A stretch of 46,553 nucleotides of DNA from a bacterium (GTDB taxonomy: Bacteria; Bdellovibrionota_C; UBA2361; RFPC01). Location of the stretch: assembly GCA_022763385.1 (NCBI GenBank), contig JALEGQ010000190.1, positions 1 to 46,553 of the forward strand. Direction: 5' to 3'. The notes under the pieces were generated by a model. It was not told the DNA's origin. It saw nothing but the letters and a program-made list of their open reading frames with translations, and searched no databases. The translations under genes and the position numbers were made by a program. Position 1 is the first letter of the stretch. Each line of letters starts with the position of its first letter. Positions 802 through 22,123 of this stretch are shown one piece after another.

Positions 802-3519
802 CTACTGACGCTTTTTCTTCTTTACCTTTTTTACCCGACTTGAGATGAAGCTGGTATCCGAACAACCTTCTGCCTTCGCATAGGCCCTGAGGCGCCGAGC
901 CTTTTTCCCTGCTCGAAAGGTAGTGCGATAGCTCTTCTTCCCTTTTTTATTGGTCTTGATTCGAACTGATTTGCGGGAAGTCTTCACTGAACGATTCTTT
1001 CTCGTTTCATCAAATCGAACCACCACCTGAGAAGCATCACCAGTGATTTTTCCACGAACGATCGCTTTCTTTCCACGAAGCTGAACCTTGGGCCGTCCCA
1101 CCACCGAGCAGCTTCCATTCTGACTACTTCTGTTTCCGAAGAGGCCATAGAACGAGAGATGAGTTACCGTAAACTGCTCACAACCATCGGCATCAGTTTC
1201 TGAGCTTGGAACCCACGAGCCGTTCTCTTGATTTGGATCCTCACTCAGTCCGTATACAGAACCTTCATCATCTTCGTTTTGGTCGCCGACCTGGCCCGGA
1301 ACTGTTTCATCCGGACAGAGCTTGAGATTCAGTGGCGAGTTGGAAAAATCAGTAACGGTCGTTCCATCTGATTTAAAGGCTTTAATCTCCAGGACATTAC
1401 TTGGAGTGTGCTGGCCTGGTGAATACTTCTCAGCCGTCTTAATCTCGACACATACCGTTCCACTGTTTGCGATTGCATTTGCGGGAACGATGAGCTGAGA
1501 GCCATTCTCTTCGTTATCTCCAATCGGAATGGTGCTCTGAGCTGTTGCATCAAAGCAAACATACTGGTTGATATATGCTCCAGCGGTAGAAAGCTCGATG
1601 GAGAGATCTTGTTCTCCTTCTGCGACCTGAAGCTCTACCTCAGAACCGCTGAAAAAGTTTTCTCCATCGACTACCTGACAGCCGATAAAGTATTCTCTTC
1701 CAGAAGCAAGAGAGAGAGAGCCTTCATACGTGGAGCTATCTCGTTGACTCAGCTCGATATAGGTCGAGCCCGCACCATGGGCGTAGCAGAACCCTCCGCT
1801 CCCAAGGTCATCATCGCCATCGGCTGAAATCGTCGTATTGACCGTGATATTCACCGTGGCGTCAGCCTGAAGTGCCTGGAGGACTACCTCCTCGCTTCCA
1901 TTCGATGCAACGAAAACCTCAACCCCAGCAGGAATGAGAGTACTTCCGTTGCCGCCAAATTGAGCGTCCTCTGGGAAACCGTCTACGAAGTAGGTTTTTC
2001 CGCCCTCGACCGGGATTTCGACTCCTCCTGGAGCACCGAACGATTGTTTGCCGGTAAAGAAGCCAAAATCATCCTGCTCTTCTTCTCCTGGAGTAAACTC
2101 GACTTGCTCTGTAACTGAGATCCACCCCGGAGTATCTTGTCCCTGAAAATCGAGAAGACTTACTCGAAGAGTGGCATTTGCGACACGAAGTGTAAAAGGA
2201 AGTGGTGCTGTTGCACCTGATGTTGCTGATGCATTTACGATGGAGAAGTCCGAGATATAGTCTGTTCCACTCTGAGAACTCACCAAAGAACGAACTGAAG
2301 TACCAGCTTTTCCGCCCCGAACAGAGAAACTTTCGAAACTCTCTTGAAAATAGTACCAACAAGAGTAGGTAACACCACTCAGCACAGAAAGCACCGCAGG
2401 CCCATCTGAAAACTGGCTAGAGTAGTTCGGAAAATGTTCGATCGCAGAGCCTTCATTCTCTGGGAGAAAGAGATCTACCCAACAGCCGACATCGATCTCC
2501 GTTCCGAGATCGTCCATATCGATCTCATTTCCCTCAGTATCTTGGAAAACGATCTCTAGTGTTGCATCCGGGGTCACGACCTCAATATCTCGCTCAAGGG
2601 TTTGGTCCGGCTCAATAGTAAAAGTCACCGGAGCATTTGCTGAATCTTCCAGATAGACACTACAGGTGAACTCCGTTCCTCCCTCTTCAGCAAATAAACG
2701 AATATCTCCGGTAGCCTCTCCTGGCCCATTCACGAATCCGTAGTAGTTCTGGTCAAACTCACCCGGAACAAAGCAGGAAAAAGAGACGAACTCTCCATCT
2801 TCTAAAGTAATTGCCTCATCTGCGGAGTTCTTCAATGTAAAACGAACAGTAGAGTTTAGAGCATCTACCTCAAGTCGAACGCTTGTTGTGCTTGCTCCAA
2901 TAGCAACATTTGGTGCGAAGGTATCACCGTACTGCTTTGGAGAATTGGCGTCGTATGAACTCACTCCAAAGCTACTTGTGACCGAATCTGGCACTCCAAA
3001 AGAAAACTCTCCATCATCATTCGTTATCCCAGAGCGATAGAGTGGCTCATCATCAAAGGTATTTTCAAAGGCACTGACATATATCCCCTCTACCCCTTGC
3101 TCGTTTGCAGCATCGACCACGGAGACCGTAACGATTCGTGTTGCGGCCTCCAGTTGAATCGCCTCAAGAGTAAACGTATCAGTGGAATCATCATATCGGC
3201 TGGAGTCTTTGGAGATAATGACATCTCTTTCAACATCGATAAGGACAGCACATTCAGAGCAGTCGGAAGAGATCGCCATTCGTGTAGCGATTTGGTAAGC
3301 CCCTTCCTCTATCGAGTAGAAAAACACCTCTCCCGTGCTCTCACTCGCCGTCGCCCCTGAAACGATATCGCCATCCCCATCAAGGAGTTCCACATAGGCG
3401 AGGGGAAGAGATTGATCCTGGGGACCGGAGAGCGGAAGGGAGACCGTTGTTACCGTCTCAGCAAAAGCAGAAGTAACGAGACTCAAGAAGAGAAGAGAGC
3501 AGAAAAAGGAGAGCTTCAT
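802..3519 (-). CDS. Large secreted protein with repeated beta-sandwich-like segments and a basic C-terminal tail
   Basis: The 905-residue product begins with a clear Sec signal peptide (short basic N-terminus, hydrophobic core, AFA cleavage site near residue 20). The body is acidic, rich in Ser, Thr, Gly and Glu, and repeats phrases such as TVSVVDAANEQGVEG and LRVSLLDFQGQDTPG. These resemble the carboxypeptidase-regulatory or transthyretin-like folds of surface proteins. About 15 Cys are scattered through it. The last 100 residues switch to a Lys/Arg-rich tail ending KKVKKKKRQ, which might bind LPS, nucleic acid or acidic polymers; that is inference. No catalytic motif was found. It converges on the protease gene with 6 bp between stops. 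I do not recognise a named family. Confidence 0.8.
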   Translation of the reverse strand: MKLSFFCSLLFLSLVTSAFAETVTTVSLPLSGPQDQSLPLAYVELLDGDGDIVSGATASESTGEVFFYSIEEGAYQIATRMAISSDCSECAVLIDVERDVIISKDSSRYDDSTDTFTLEAIQLEAATRIVTVSVVDAANEQGVEGIYVSAFENTFDDEPLYRSGITNDDGEFSFGVPDSVTSSFGVSSYDANSPKQYGDTFAPNVAIGASTTSVRLEVDALNSTVRFTLKNSADEAITLEDGEFVSFSCFVPGEFDQNYYGFVNGPGEATGDIRLFAEEGGTEFTCSVYLEDSANAPVTFTIEPDQTLERDIEVVTPDATLEIVFQDTEGNEIDMDDLGTEIDVGCWVDLFLPENEGSAIEHFPNYSSQFSDGPAVLSVLSGVTYSCWYYFQESFESFSVRGGKAGTSVRSLVSSQSGTDYISDFSIVNASATSGATAPLPFTLRVANATLRVSLLDFQGQDTPGWISVTEQVEFTPGEEEQDDFGFFTGKQSFGAPGGVEIPVEGGKTYFVDGFPEDAQFGGNGSTLIPAGVEVFVASNGSEEVVLQALQADATVNITVNTTISADGDDDLGSGGFCYAHGAGSTYIELSQRDSSTYEGSLSLASGREYFIGCQVVDGENFFSGSEVELQVAEGEQDLSIELSTAGAYINQYVCFDATAQSTIPIGDNEENGSQLIVPANAIANSGTVCVEIKTAEKYSPGQHTPSNVLEIKAFKSDGTTVTDFSNSPLNLKLCPDETVPGQVGDQNEDDEGSVYGLSEDPNQENGSWVPSSETDADGCEQFTVTHLSFYGLFGNRSSQNGSCSVVGRPKVQLRGKKAIVRGKITGDASQVVVRFDETRKNRSVKTSRKSVRIKTNKKGKKSYRTTFRAGKKARRLRAYAKAEGCSDTSFISSRVKKVKKKKRQ

Positions 3520-3659
3520 AGCGATTTCCGAAAAGAGATGCAGACGAACAGCAACGGAACAACGAGGAGGAATTACGTCGGATTGAACGAAAAGCTTTAC
3601 CCCTATCTCTTCTCTTTTACGTGTTAAGGAAGAATTGCAGAAATCTTAAATAATAAAGA

Positions 3660-4715
3660 TTACTTAGAGAGGGCGAGCTCTCCTTCGAGTCTCTGAGAGC
3701 GAACATCACGAAACTGAAGAGAAGAAAACGAAGTAATCTCTCTTTCCGAGACAAACTGTCGTATTCCGCTGAAGAATTTCTCCTTGGCAAATGGTGGCAT
3801 CGCCTGCATCGGAAAATCTTCGACAAGAACAACAAAGACATCGCCCTCAATAGCAAAATCTTGAATCTTCGGACCGGCAACTGGATTCTTGCTCAAGAAC
3901 TCTCCGAGTAAAACTCCGGCGTTCTTCGTGAGTTCTGGCAGCAGTTGGGCCGTTTCGTTGCCGTTTTTTTCCGGCTCAACAGCACCTGAGGAAGGAGGCG
4001 ACGACGCTGTGCCGTGCTGAGCTCGCTTGCGAATTCCCTTCAGGAACCCTTCCAATTTTTCACGAGCCTCAGGAGAAGGAGCCAACGCGAGTGCCCTCTC
4101 TCCCTGTCGCTCCATCTCTTGGAAGTTCCCCATCTGAGCAAAAGCAAGGGTAAGATATGCTCGCAACTGGAAGTCCTCTGGATTGCGATCAACAAGTTTC
4201 TGGAGAATGACTTGAGACTCATCAGCCCTTCCAAGAAAAGTAAGAGCGCTTGCATAACGAGCACGCACCGCGTCATCTTCCGGAGCCTGGGTGAGGTATC
4301 GCTCGTAGAACTCAAGTGCCTCCGGAAACCCTTGTAATTCAAACGACAGGTCTCCAAGCATCAGGAGAGCCTCTGCATCTTCTCCAGCGATCTGGAGCAC
4401 CTCTCGCAGTGCCTGGAGAGCCTCAAGCGAAGCCGCCTCTCGAGCGATCACCCCACTATTCGCCTTTGCAATAAGCTCCCGAGCAAGAGACATCCAGACC
4501 GTCCTCTCGCCAGGCCGAACTCGTGTGGCCTCCCGTAACCGAGTGATATCCGGATCCTCGTACTGAAACTGCCCCGAGTGATCCTCTGGAACAAACACCT
4601 CACGAGGAGGCTCGCCGGTAATCTGCTTCTGGAATGACCAAAGAGCAGCAAACACCCCCACCGAGCATCCCACCGTCACCAATACATACGCCACGACCCG
4701 TCCCATCGCCCCCAT
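3660..4715 (-). CDS. Membrane-anchored tetratricopeptide-repeat protein
   Basis: I chose the ATG at 4715 (351 residues). It lies 7-9 bases after a G-rich Shine-Dalgarno-like run, and the hydrophobic anchor starts at once (VVAYVLVTVGCSVGVFAALW). A longer frame to 4856 would run through a REP-like palindrome and is unlikely. After the single membrane helix come several TPR units, for example LLMLGDLSFELQGFPEALEF and the following FLGRADESQVIL and AYLTLAFAQMGNF segments. The C-terminal third has a Ser/Pro/Glu linker and an unassigned domain. The arrangement recalls the CcmH/CycH-type TPR proteins of cytochrome c maturation, but no other ccm gene is nearby, so only a scaffold role is supported. 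The RAYT-like transposase gene begins 113 bp upstream on the opposite strand. Confidence 0.78.
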   Translation of the reverse strand: MGAMGRVVAYVLVTVGCSVGVFAALWSFQKQITGEPPREVFVPEDHSGQFQYEDPDITRLREATRVRPGERTVWMSLARELIAKANSGVIAREAASLEALQALREVLQIAGEDAEALLMLGDLSFELQGFPEALEFYERYLTQAPEDDAVRARYASALTFLGRADESQVILQKLVDRNPEDFQLRAYLTLAFAQMGNFQEMERQGERALALAPSPEAREKLEGFLKGIRKRAQHGTASSPPSSGAVEPEKNGNETAQLLPELTKNAGVLLGEFLSKNPVAGPKIQDFAIEGDVFVVLVEDFPMQAMPPFAKEKFFSGIRQFVSEREITSFSSLQFRDVRSQRLEGELALSK

Positions 4716-20020: not shown

Positions 20021-20554
20021 TCAACTCTCCTTTCCAGGACCGGTCTTTGACGACATGCCTCCAGCACTATCGCCTGCTTTTTGTTCGCCTACGTTCTGTT
20101 CGGTAGAACCGCTCGCACGAGAGCTGCGGTTCATCATCTGACAGCTCCCCTCAAAAACGGCTCCATCTTCTACCTGGATACTGGCGCATGTCACGTTTCC
20201 AACGACCTTTCCAGAGCGAAAAATGATGAGCTTGGAGGACGCAACGATATCTCCGTATACCGTCCCCTTTACTATTACATCGCTCCCGTCGATCTTTGCT
20301 TTGATGACCGCGGACTCACCGACTTCCAGCCGACTCTCGGCGGCAACTTCCCCCTCAATCTCTCCACTCAGAACGGCTGGACCAGTAAAGGAGAGCTTTC
20401 CCACGACAGCGGAACCAGCGCCGAGGAATGCTGCTTGATGACCACCGGAACCGACTTCTCGGCCGACACCAACGCCCGCAGCTCCTGCAGAACTCAAACC
20501 TGTGCCAGGTTTACGACCTGAGGAGCCGTCTTTGCCACCTCGAGAAAAAGCCAT
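20021..20554 (-). CDS. Bactofilin (polymer-forming cytoskeletal protein)
   Basis: The 177-residue protein has a Gly/Ser-rich disordered N-terminus (about 1-45). A central bactofilin domain (about 46-140) follows, made of short repeating turns: SFTGPAVLSGEIEGEVAAES, VIKAKIDGSDVIVKGTVYGD, then KVVGNVTCASIQVEDGAVFE. A disordered Ser/Gly C-tail closes it. Bactofilins polymerise without nucleotide into beta-helical filaments that position ParABS machinery, cell-wall enzymes or stalk proteins. Placement directly after parAB fits the role shown for bactofilins in Myxococcus chromosome segregation (known for that genus; inferred here). The start has AGAGG 5 bases upstream. Confidence 0.92.
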   Translation of the reverse strand: MAFSRGGKDGSSGRKPGTGLSSAGAAGVGVGREVGSGGHQAAFLGAGSAVVGKLSFTGPAVLSGEIEGEVAAESRLEVGESAVIKAKIDGSDVIVKGTVYGDIVASSKLIIFRSGKVVGNVTCASIQVEDGAVFEGSCQMMNRSSRASGSTEQNVGEQKAGDSAGGMSSKTGPGKES

Positions 20555-20654: not shown

Positions 20655-20854
20655 GTAAGCGCCCAGCTTTTTGCCGCTGTTCGCTGCGGGCGCTGAAGCG
20701 CCCTACGCGACTCTCTGCTGGTCGCTTTCCCTTGGGGAAAGCTCGGCAGAGAGCTTCGTCAGCTGGTGCGGGGCCGTGCTCAATGTACCCTACGTACGTT
20801 TCCGCTCGTCCCCGCACCAGCTTCCTCGACAGCGACAAAAATCTGGGCGCTTAC
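20655..20854. repeat. 200-bp cloverleaf-like structured element, complete copy
   Basis: The ends are 26-bp inverted repeats with two mismatches (20655-20680, starting GTAAGCGCCCAG; 20829-20854, ending CTGGGCGCTTAC). Inside are three separate stems: GGGCGC/GCGCCC with a TGAA loop (20688-20703); CTCTCTGC/GCAGAGAG (20711-20753) capped by GCTTTCCC/GGGAAAGC (20724-20742); and a perfect 12-bp stem GCTGGTGCGGGG (20762-20773) with CCCCGCACCAGC (20810-20821) around a 36-base loop. Together they form a base stem with three arms. The stretch is non-coding: open frames crossing it have no ribosome-binding site and no recognisable product. It lies between the parB stop and the bactofilin start. Origin could be a MITE, a REP/BIME-type composite, or an RNA or ssDNA structure; none is proven. 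Confidence 0.85.
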
Positions 20855-20900
20855 ATTCCCTGGTGGAGGGGGTTGATGGGGAGGAGTTTTGTCTTGCCCT

Positions 20901-21021
20901 CGCCCAGCTTTTTGCCGCTGTTCGCTGCGGGCGCTGAGGCGCCCTACGCGACTCTCTGCTGGACGCTTTTCCGGGGGAAAAGCTCGGCAGAGAGCTTCGT
21001 CAGCCGGTGCAGGGCCGTGCT
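20901..21021. repeat. Second, right-truncated copy of the structured element
   Basis: 121 bases match 20660-20780 at a fixed offset of 241, with 8 differences. The small hairpin at 20929-20944 keeps its stem (the change is in the loop). In the capped arm the stem pair C-G (20729/20737) is T-A here (20970/20978), a compensatory change, and the loop is GGG instead of TTG. The right half, including the partner of the 12-bp stem and the right terminal repeat, is missing. The copy ends 43 bp before the parB stop. Confidence 0.85.
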
Positions 21022-21064
21022 CCGTTTGGGAGTCGCGCCTGTCGCCGTCAGCCTGGGGTCCTCT

Positions 21065-22123
21065 TCACTGCTGAAAGCAGATCTTCTCGGCGATGCGCTC
21101 GAGCTCCTCGTGAGAGAAATAGTCAATCGTAATCTTTCCTTTTCCAGCGGACTTTTCGTGAACTCCCACCTTGGCGCCGAGGGTCTTCTGGAGCTCGTCA
21201 ACGATATCACGAAACTTCTCCTGATCTGCTGAGGTGCTTCCTGTCTTTCGTTGATTGCTCTTTAGCGTCACTTTGCGCCCGACAATCCGTTCAAGCTCAC
21301 GAACACTCATCCCCTCACCCACAACTTTTGCCGCAAGGGCGAGTTGAAGCTTCGGTTCCTTTACCGTCAAGATGGCCTTGGCGTGCCCGACAGAGATCTC
21401 TCCTCGCTCAAGTTGATCCTGTACCGAGGTTGGGAGCTTGAGGAGTCGAATCAAATTGGAAACCGTCGCCCGCTCTTTTCCGACCTTCTCAGCTACTTCG
21501 GCTTGGGTAAGGTGGAAGCGGGTAATAAGCTCTTGGTAGCCACGGGCTTCCTCGAGAGCGGTAAGGTCAGAGCGCTGTACGTTCTCAACGAGAGAGATCT
21601 CAAGACAGTCGAGATCGCTCATTTCCCTAATGATTACAGGGAGTTGGGCTATCTTTAGCTCGGAGGCTGCCCTCCACCTTCGCTCTCCGGCAACGATCTG
21701 GAGCTCTTGGCTTTCTGGGGTCGGGCGAACCAGAATTGGTTGAAGAAGTCCGTGATTTCGGATCGAATGTACGAGCTCTTGAACTTCCTGCTCATCGAAG
21801 AACTTCCGTGGTTGGTCCGGATTCGGAACAACCCGTCCTCTTGGGACGAACTGGACAAGCCCAGCTTCGGCTGCCTCGCTCGGAGGAGCTTCTGTGTTTG
21901 TCGTTGGCATCTGAACAATTTTCTCTGAAGCTTTTCCTGAGCTGCTTTTCTCTTCTGAAGTGGAGGCTCGCTGAGAGGAGGCCTTCTTCTTGGAGGGAGA
22001 AGTTTCTGTGGAGTCCGAGGCCTGCTCACCTTCGGTCTCGAGCTTCACGGCGACCGGCTGAGAAGAGATAAGAGCCCCAAGTCCCCTCCCCAGCCCACGT
22101 TTCTTTTTTCCAGCAACAGCCAT
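21065..22123 (-). CDS. parB: Chromosome-partitioning protein ParB (Spo0J family)
   Basis: ParB is a CTP-dependent DNA clamp loaded at parS. The N-terminal KKRGLGRGLGALI (6-19) is the ParA-activating peptide. A low-complexity Ser/Lys/Glu linker (about 22-88) makes this 352-residue protein longer than most. The CTP-binding ParB/Srx domain follows with NPDQPRKFF, GERRWRA (GERR, about 146-149) and ENVQR (180-184). Next come the helix-turn-helix (LTQAEVAEKVGKERATVSNL, about 206-225) and a C-terminal dimerisation domain. GGGGAGA precedes the ATG. Four candidate parS sites lie within 1.2 kb. Confidence 0.96.
   Translation of the reverse strand: MAVAGKKKRGLGRGLGALISSQPVAVKLETEGEQASDSTETSPSKKKASSQRASTSEEKSSSGKASEKIVQMPTTNTEAPPSEAAEAGLVQFVPRGRVVPNPDQPRKFFDEQEVQELVHSIRNHGLLQPILVRPTPESQELQIVAGERRWRAASELKIAQLPVIIREMSDLDCLEISLVENVQRSDLTALEEARGYQELITRFHLTQAEVAEKVGKERATVSNLIRLLKLPTSVQDQLERGEISVGHAKAILTVKEPKLQLALAAKVVGEGMSVRELERIVGRKVTLKSNQRKTGSTSADQEKFRDIVDELQKTLGAKVGVHEKSAGKGKITIDYFSHEELERIAEKICFQQ

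Follow-up and report, generated by a model that had tools for sequence, protein, structure and literature searches.

A multi-copy palindromic MITE with IS66-type ends and a shared structured core in a genome of the Bdellovibrionota_C

An intergenic palindrome between a bactofilin gene and parB, found in a 46,553-nucleotide stretch of a draft bacterial genome (contig JALEGQ010000190.1; the whole stretch is called the window), raises the question of what kind of element folds like a cloverleaf, changes both partners of a base pair between two neighbouring copies and lies beside a ParB gene. The original prediction, made from the sequence letters, saw either a mobile ssDNA-type element or a structured RNA within the par/atp transcript, with a fold kept by selection in RNA or single-stranded DNA. 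The analysis reported here indicates that the element is indeed mobile, structured and non-coding, with real covariation, but is most likely not of the ssDNA type, since its ends and target duplications are of the IS66 class: it is a real, multi-copy, mobile IS66-type MITE, new as a family.

Architecture and fold of the element

The unit predicted at positions 20655-20854, 200 bp long with terminal inverted repeats of 26 nt, was borne out; these repeats are 92% complementary, and the unit measures 198-201 bp in 15 copies from the window's own genome. The two neighbours had been named correctly as far as position and synteny tell, ParB also being recognised by NCBIfam. The features of the locus, by position and strand, are:

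20021..20554, minus: bactofilin gene, a neighbour at a distance of 100 bp (named in the original prediction, synteny in relatives; no NCBIfam match)
20655..20854, plus: complete palindromic MITE unit, cloverleaf, 200 bp (genome copies, fold, alignment)
20655..20680, plus: left terminal inverted repeat, IS66-type end, GTAAGCGCCCAGC... (start of the IS66 inverted repeat and 8-bp direct repeat, PMC11946415)
20681..20710, plus: arm 1, a short stem whose sequence differs between copies with pairing retained (helices 3 and 4)
20711..20753, plus: arm 2, CTCTCTGC...GCAGAGAG, with the inner capped stem that holds the C-G to T-A change (helices 5 and 6)
20755..20828, plus: arm 3 and flanking internal loops, the shared core (model R2)
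20756..20761, plus: internal loop A, 5' side, TCGTCA
20776..20781, plus: internal loop B, 5' side, GTGCTC
20785..20797, plus: apical hairpin GTAC-N5-GTAC
20799..20805, plus: internal loop B, 3' side, TTTCCGC
20822..20828, plus: internal loop A, 3' side, TTCCTCG
20829..20854, minus: right terminal inverted repeat
20855..20900, plus: spacer common to copies made of a unit and a truncated unit (similar in L002, L004, L008 and L009)
20901..21022, plus: second unit, lacking GTAA and cut off on the right
21065..22123, minus: parB, neighbour outside the element (position, synteny, NCBIfam)

Folded as RNA, the single window copy reaches -125.6 kcal/mol on the plus strand, where shuffled sequences average -72.3 (z -12.5); z is -13.5 for the minus strand and -10.5 with DNA parameters, so that on both strands the fold lies far beyond chance. 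In the capped arm, the reported C-G to T-A change can be seen (GCTTTCCC/GGGAAAGC versus GCTTTTCC/GGAAAAGC). Single-base indels distinguish copies of the window family, and no reading frame is therefore retained in the element. The element has no Rfam match above the gathering score, in agreement with the view that no described family has this layout. The second copy is 93% identical to the first over 122 nt (20901-21022), as had been noticed, but it is not an independent second insertion, because about ten loci have such a right-truncated second unit, at a distance of about 46-50 bp from the first.

Copies in the genome and in relatives

About 25-30 full or partial copies are dispersed in the window's genome (G000, a 3.07-Mb draft of 228 contigs), where a DNA search returned 35 matches, corresponding to some 15 near-complete units and a number of fragments. 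A covariance model built from 15 units, all from this genome (R1), detected diverged copies in two further genera of the family, 12 in G003 and five in G005, so that the further copies called for by the prediction exist in number; the R1 search found the element absent from G001 and G002, the two other genomes of the same genus. Since copies lie beside accA, priA, fabF, purE and other unrelated genes, and since parB and the bactofilin gene adjoin without the element in G002, G003 and G004 (the empty junction is about 165 bp in G002 versus 511 bp in the window), the supposed link to the par/atp transcript is incidental and a role specific to par was rejected.

Two smaller repeats were seen at or beside copies. 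A stretch of about 34 nt (TCCCCCTTCGCCAAGGCTACGGGGGACAGGCAGTC) inside two different G005 copies (L041 and L045) forms a nested small palindrome, and a palindromic motif like GGTGTCTGACACC, perhaps a separate repeat family, recurs in the flanks of L002, L007 and L016.

Transposon ends and target duplications

The ends of the element start with GTAAGCG, GTAACCG or rarely GTGAGCG, and the opposite end matches; with 26 nt they fall in the range of 20-30 bp typical of IS66-type ends. IS66 ends start with GTAAGCG and 8-bp repeats are made on insertion (PMC11946415); ISDge4, of the IS66 family, has the ends GTGACTACTCAGCA/GTAACTGCTCAGCA and an 8-bp repeat (PMC12898284). Two layouts occur among the copies. 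In the first, the unit carries a tail of about 40 bp ending in ...GTGAATGCTTAC or similar, and 8-bp repeats flank the whole, for example TCGAAGCG, AAGCGCTG and AGTAAGCG, or CTCCCAGA in G003. Nine copies whose right end is defined have an 8-bp duplication, in which 66 of 72 positions agree compared with 22.5 in shuffled pairings (0 of 20000 as high), a test that slightly favours the claim in that the right border was the terminal TAC of tail or unit in eight of the nine copies and was set by eye in L040.

In the second layout, to which the window copy belongs, a spacer of 46-50 bp is followed by a second unit without GTAA whose right cut point differs from copy to copy. About ten copies have a precise left end and a ragged right end, and neither a recognisable 8-bp duplication nor a defined right end was found in the window copy and the others of this layout. 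The simplest guess is that the right end of a former dimer was deleted. A reverse-transcription-like insertion, with GTAA as primer and a ragged far end, was also considered and is unsupported over such a plain deletion.

A single IS66 transposase is encoded in the window's genome (NF033517, E 1.8e-67, contig C132), within an element with the ends GTAAGCATTCACGT...GTGAATGCTTAC. In one group of copies the 40-bp tail has ACGTGAATGCTTAC at its end, and the inverted repeat of the IS66 element matches the tail end over 14 bp. The transposase lies at positions 3306-4712 of L032, about 1 kb from an element copy; its N-terminal part (3306-3671) and main ORF (3738-4712) are in separate frames, and it may be broken or frameshifted. 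Counting against an IS66 model are the two genomes of the same genus that lack the element, and also G003 and G005, draft genomes that carry the element and in which no PF03050 transposase was found.

The element belongs to the MITE class, being short and non-coding, with terminal inverted repeats, many dispersed copies, target duplications in some of them and, in a relative, an unoccupied site. We infer that an IS66-family transposase most likely moves it in trans. The precise left and ragged right ends of about ten copies, the position of left ends at gene stop codons and the unpaired hairpin bases that stay fixed while stems vary (see below) would also be expected of a single-stranded DNA element moved, like REPs or attC sites, by an HUH enzyme (Y1/RAYT) or another hairpin-recognising enzyme. 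We regard this as very unlikely, given that the 8-bp duplications of the subset misfit insertion of the IS200/IS605 type, that Y1_Tnp is common in genomes without the element, and that it is absent from G044 and from G016, a genome with more than 20 copies of the core. An identity with REP/RAYT systems was rejected for the same lack of co-occurrence with a Y1 transposase.

Covariation at the level of RNA or DNA

In an alignment of 22 full copies with 66 base pairs, 41 of the pairs have both partners changed in one copy or more, which none of 500 shuffles reached. Compensatory cells number 173 versus 52.5 in shuffles, 96.2% of the cells are paired, double changes are far commoner than one-sided ones, and the signal is lost when the structure is shifted by one column. 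Therefore, the fold is a real feature common to the copies.

Such strong covariation (41 pairs) and the conserved internal loops of the core would also be accounted for by a structured non-coding RNA, or a 3'-UTR element, that duplication had spread and selection had maintained as RNA. Selection of that kind should allow G-U pairs on one strand. At consensus-paired positions, G-T and A-C mismatches numbered 28 versus 41 in the window family, 21 versus 21 in G016 and 11 versus 18 in the 180-bp families described below, or 60 versus 80 pooled over the three sets (p = 0.11), so that no set has a plus-strand G-U excess; RNA function on both strands would give the same mismatch pattern. Because this strand bias is absent, the covariation does not point to RNA and maintenance of the pairing at the DNA level fits better, a reading in which we have moderate confidence. 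Thus the predicted covariation is real, but selection on an RNA or ssDNA fold does not follow from it alone, A-C mismatches being as frequent as G-T. Template switching in DNA makes and mends hairpin stems (PMC8794818), and the pairing of the element would be kept by switching between its arms together with selection on its loops.

A core shared with other MITE families

Over the whole alignment conservation is not in favour of the loops (0.60 versus 0.69 in stems), and the contrast emerges only when the internal loops of the core are separated from apical loops: within the core, identity is 0.83-0.90 in internal loops and 0.39 in the stem. Conserved unpaired loops are unexpected from template switching alone, and a contribution of selection, acting on the fold or on the double-stranded sequence, is needed.

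A pattern chosen from arm 3 of the core was searched in about 85,000 species genomes. It matched G003 and a multi-copy family in four Planctomycetota drafts, which has entirely different ends (CTAGCAGCCCGTTGAAAAAG...) and lacks arms 1 and 2. Five isolated matches, in Gammaproteobacteria, Chromatiales and Selenomonadaceae, were discounted because they resemble coding sequence. R2, a 73-nt core model whose E-values are rough, found more than 20 copies in G016 and further copies in G014, G044, G024, G032, G004 and G005, all of the same phylum; among 383 more widely sampled genomes, 13 had matches at E < 1e-6, five of them outside the class, and the repeat families in other phyla each had their own terminal inverted repeats. 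As the window copy was among the source sequences of R2, its own match arises by construction, and the evidence lies in the matches of other families.

Five core families are 174-184 bp long, and nearly all of their copies have TA at each end. In most planctomycete copies TA stands at both ends with C/G outside; IS630-type MITEs have a TA duplication and prefer CTAG. The window's genome holds a second MITE family with the same core, 179 bp long with the ends TAGGCTCTGTCGGAAAAG, at five loci (L122-L126; contigs C137, C187, C47, C72 and C178). In G005 a core-bearing palindrome lies directly behind a tRNA gene identified by Rfam (L110, contig C22).

It could be argued that the cores are not homologous, either because MITEs converge on similar loops or because the search picked look-alikes, given that the seed pattern was drawn from the core, that its five isolated matches in other bacteria look coding and that R2 E-values are rough. 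This seems improbable, since R1, which contains no planctomycete sequence and derives from the window's genome, finds the planctomycete copies with E of about 1e-9 and aligns them beyond the pattern, into the inner stem and a CC/GA internal loop; since a third loop motif (CTGCTGCGG / CTCGCGACG), never a search input, is common to the 180-bp families; and since R2 recovers families with their own terminal repeats in other phyla.

The cloverleaf would accordingly be read as built round a core, arm 3 with its two conserved internal loops, that also occurs in several unrelated MITE families, in other phyla too, which suggests a common job for it. Being carried by unrelated families, the core would have been spread or retained for a reason other than the binding of one transposase. 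Loops held while stems turn over are the pattern that would be expected of a recognised hairpin; the loops would be erased by template switching alone. It is a tentative proposal, which we think may well be wrong, that the core is a functional module shared across phyla by MITEs of unrelated transposases, recognised as a hairpin and aiding amplification or tolerance at gene ends. On that proposal a single host or mobile factor would recognise ssDNA, a cruciform or RNA through the fixed internal loops TCGTCA/TTCCTCG and GTGCTC/CTCCGC, on variable stems.

Location at gene ends

Many copies follow a gene immediately, on its sense strand. In 15 of 37 copies the open frame on the left terminates in frame at the TAA of GTAA, and a separate check found the same at L002 and L004. 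FabF, PriA, AccA and PurE, the proteins checked, stop no more than a few residues away from the C-terminal end of their families. The AccA beside the element is about three residues shorter than orthologues, which were fetched with an approximate AccA query sequence, and this argues that the element supplies the stop codon at least at accA. Insertions near a 3' end are likely to survive best when the element's end stops translation at once; a target-site preference is a possible alternative cause. A terminator role was rejected for the window family, in which no T-run follows the stem and the T-run belongs to the left arm.

In G016 more than 20 core copies stand at gene ends (L155-L174), as far as frames are readable, and the stop codon is often inside the stem foot. 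These feet vary between copies yet are mostly paired; an A-run precedes and a T-run follows. That is the shape of bidirectional terminators, and in this genome the core may belong to putative terminators of this kind or have inserted into them. Half-copies and tandem copies occur nearby.

The sense-strand position of many copies and the terminator-like feet of G016 are further points that a selected RNA would explain. Its likelihood is nevertheless low in our judgement, because besides the missing G-U excess and the missing Rfam match, the planctomycete copies take both orientations relative to genes (3 versus 2, no bias seen) and families with transposon ends carry the same core. Taken together, the element is probably a non-autonomous palindromic MITE with IS66 ends, moved in trans by an IS66 transposase, with a shared core and with pairing kept at the DNA level.

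Comparison with known systems

The element resembles the IS66 family, including its single-ORF ISBst12 group, in its ends (GTAAGCG / GTAAC...CAGC), in the 8-bp target duplication of a subset and in the IS66 transposase gene of the same genome. Unlike IS66, it has no transposase, many of its copies carry an extra truncated unit and no duplication, and it has two internal arms and a structured core, for which no IS66 description was found. Palindromes close behind genes also recall REP/BIME sequences with RAYT; the element differs in being much longer, in the duplications of a subset and in having no link to a Y1 transposase gene. By description only, it can be likened to the multicopy palindromic intergenic repeats of unknown function in Geobacter and Pelobacter (PMC2996986, PMC2700814, PMC3543383).

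The case is also a caution against taking dense covariation in a repeat as proof of a functional RNA, since the double changes in this transposon DNA lack a wobble bias.

In being short, non-coding, palindromic and dispersed the element is like the bacterial MITEs RUP, Correia, ERIC/RU-1 and the Coxiella QMITE, and bacterial MITEs are mobilised in trans by an IS (PMC2229807, PMC10969869). What sets it apart from known MITEs is a core with conserved loops common to MITEs of different ends in several phyla, of which no description was found in the literature searched.

MITE interiors are usually regarded as filler. Loops held on changing stems, between different ends and in different phyla, point instead to a common selected function and to a defined, testable motif, and this core shared across MITEs of different ends is the part worth pursuing.
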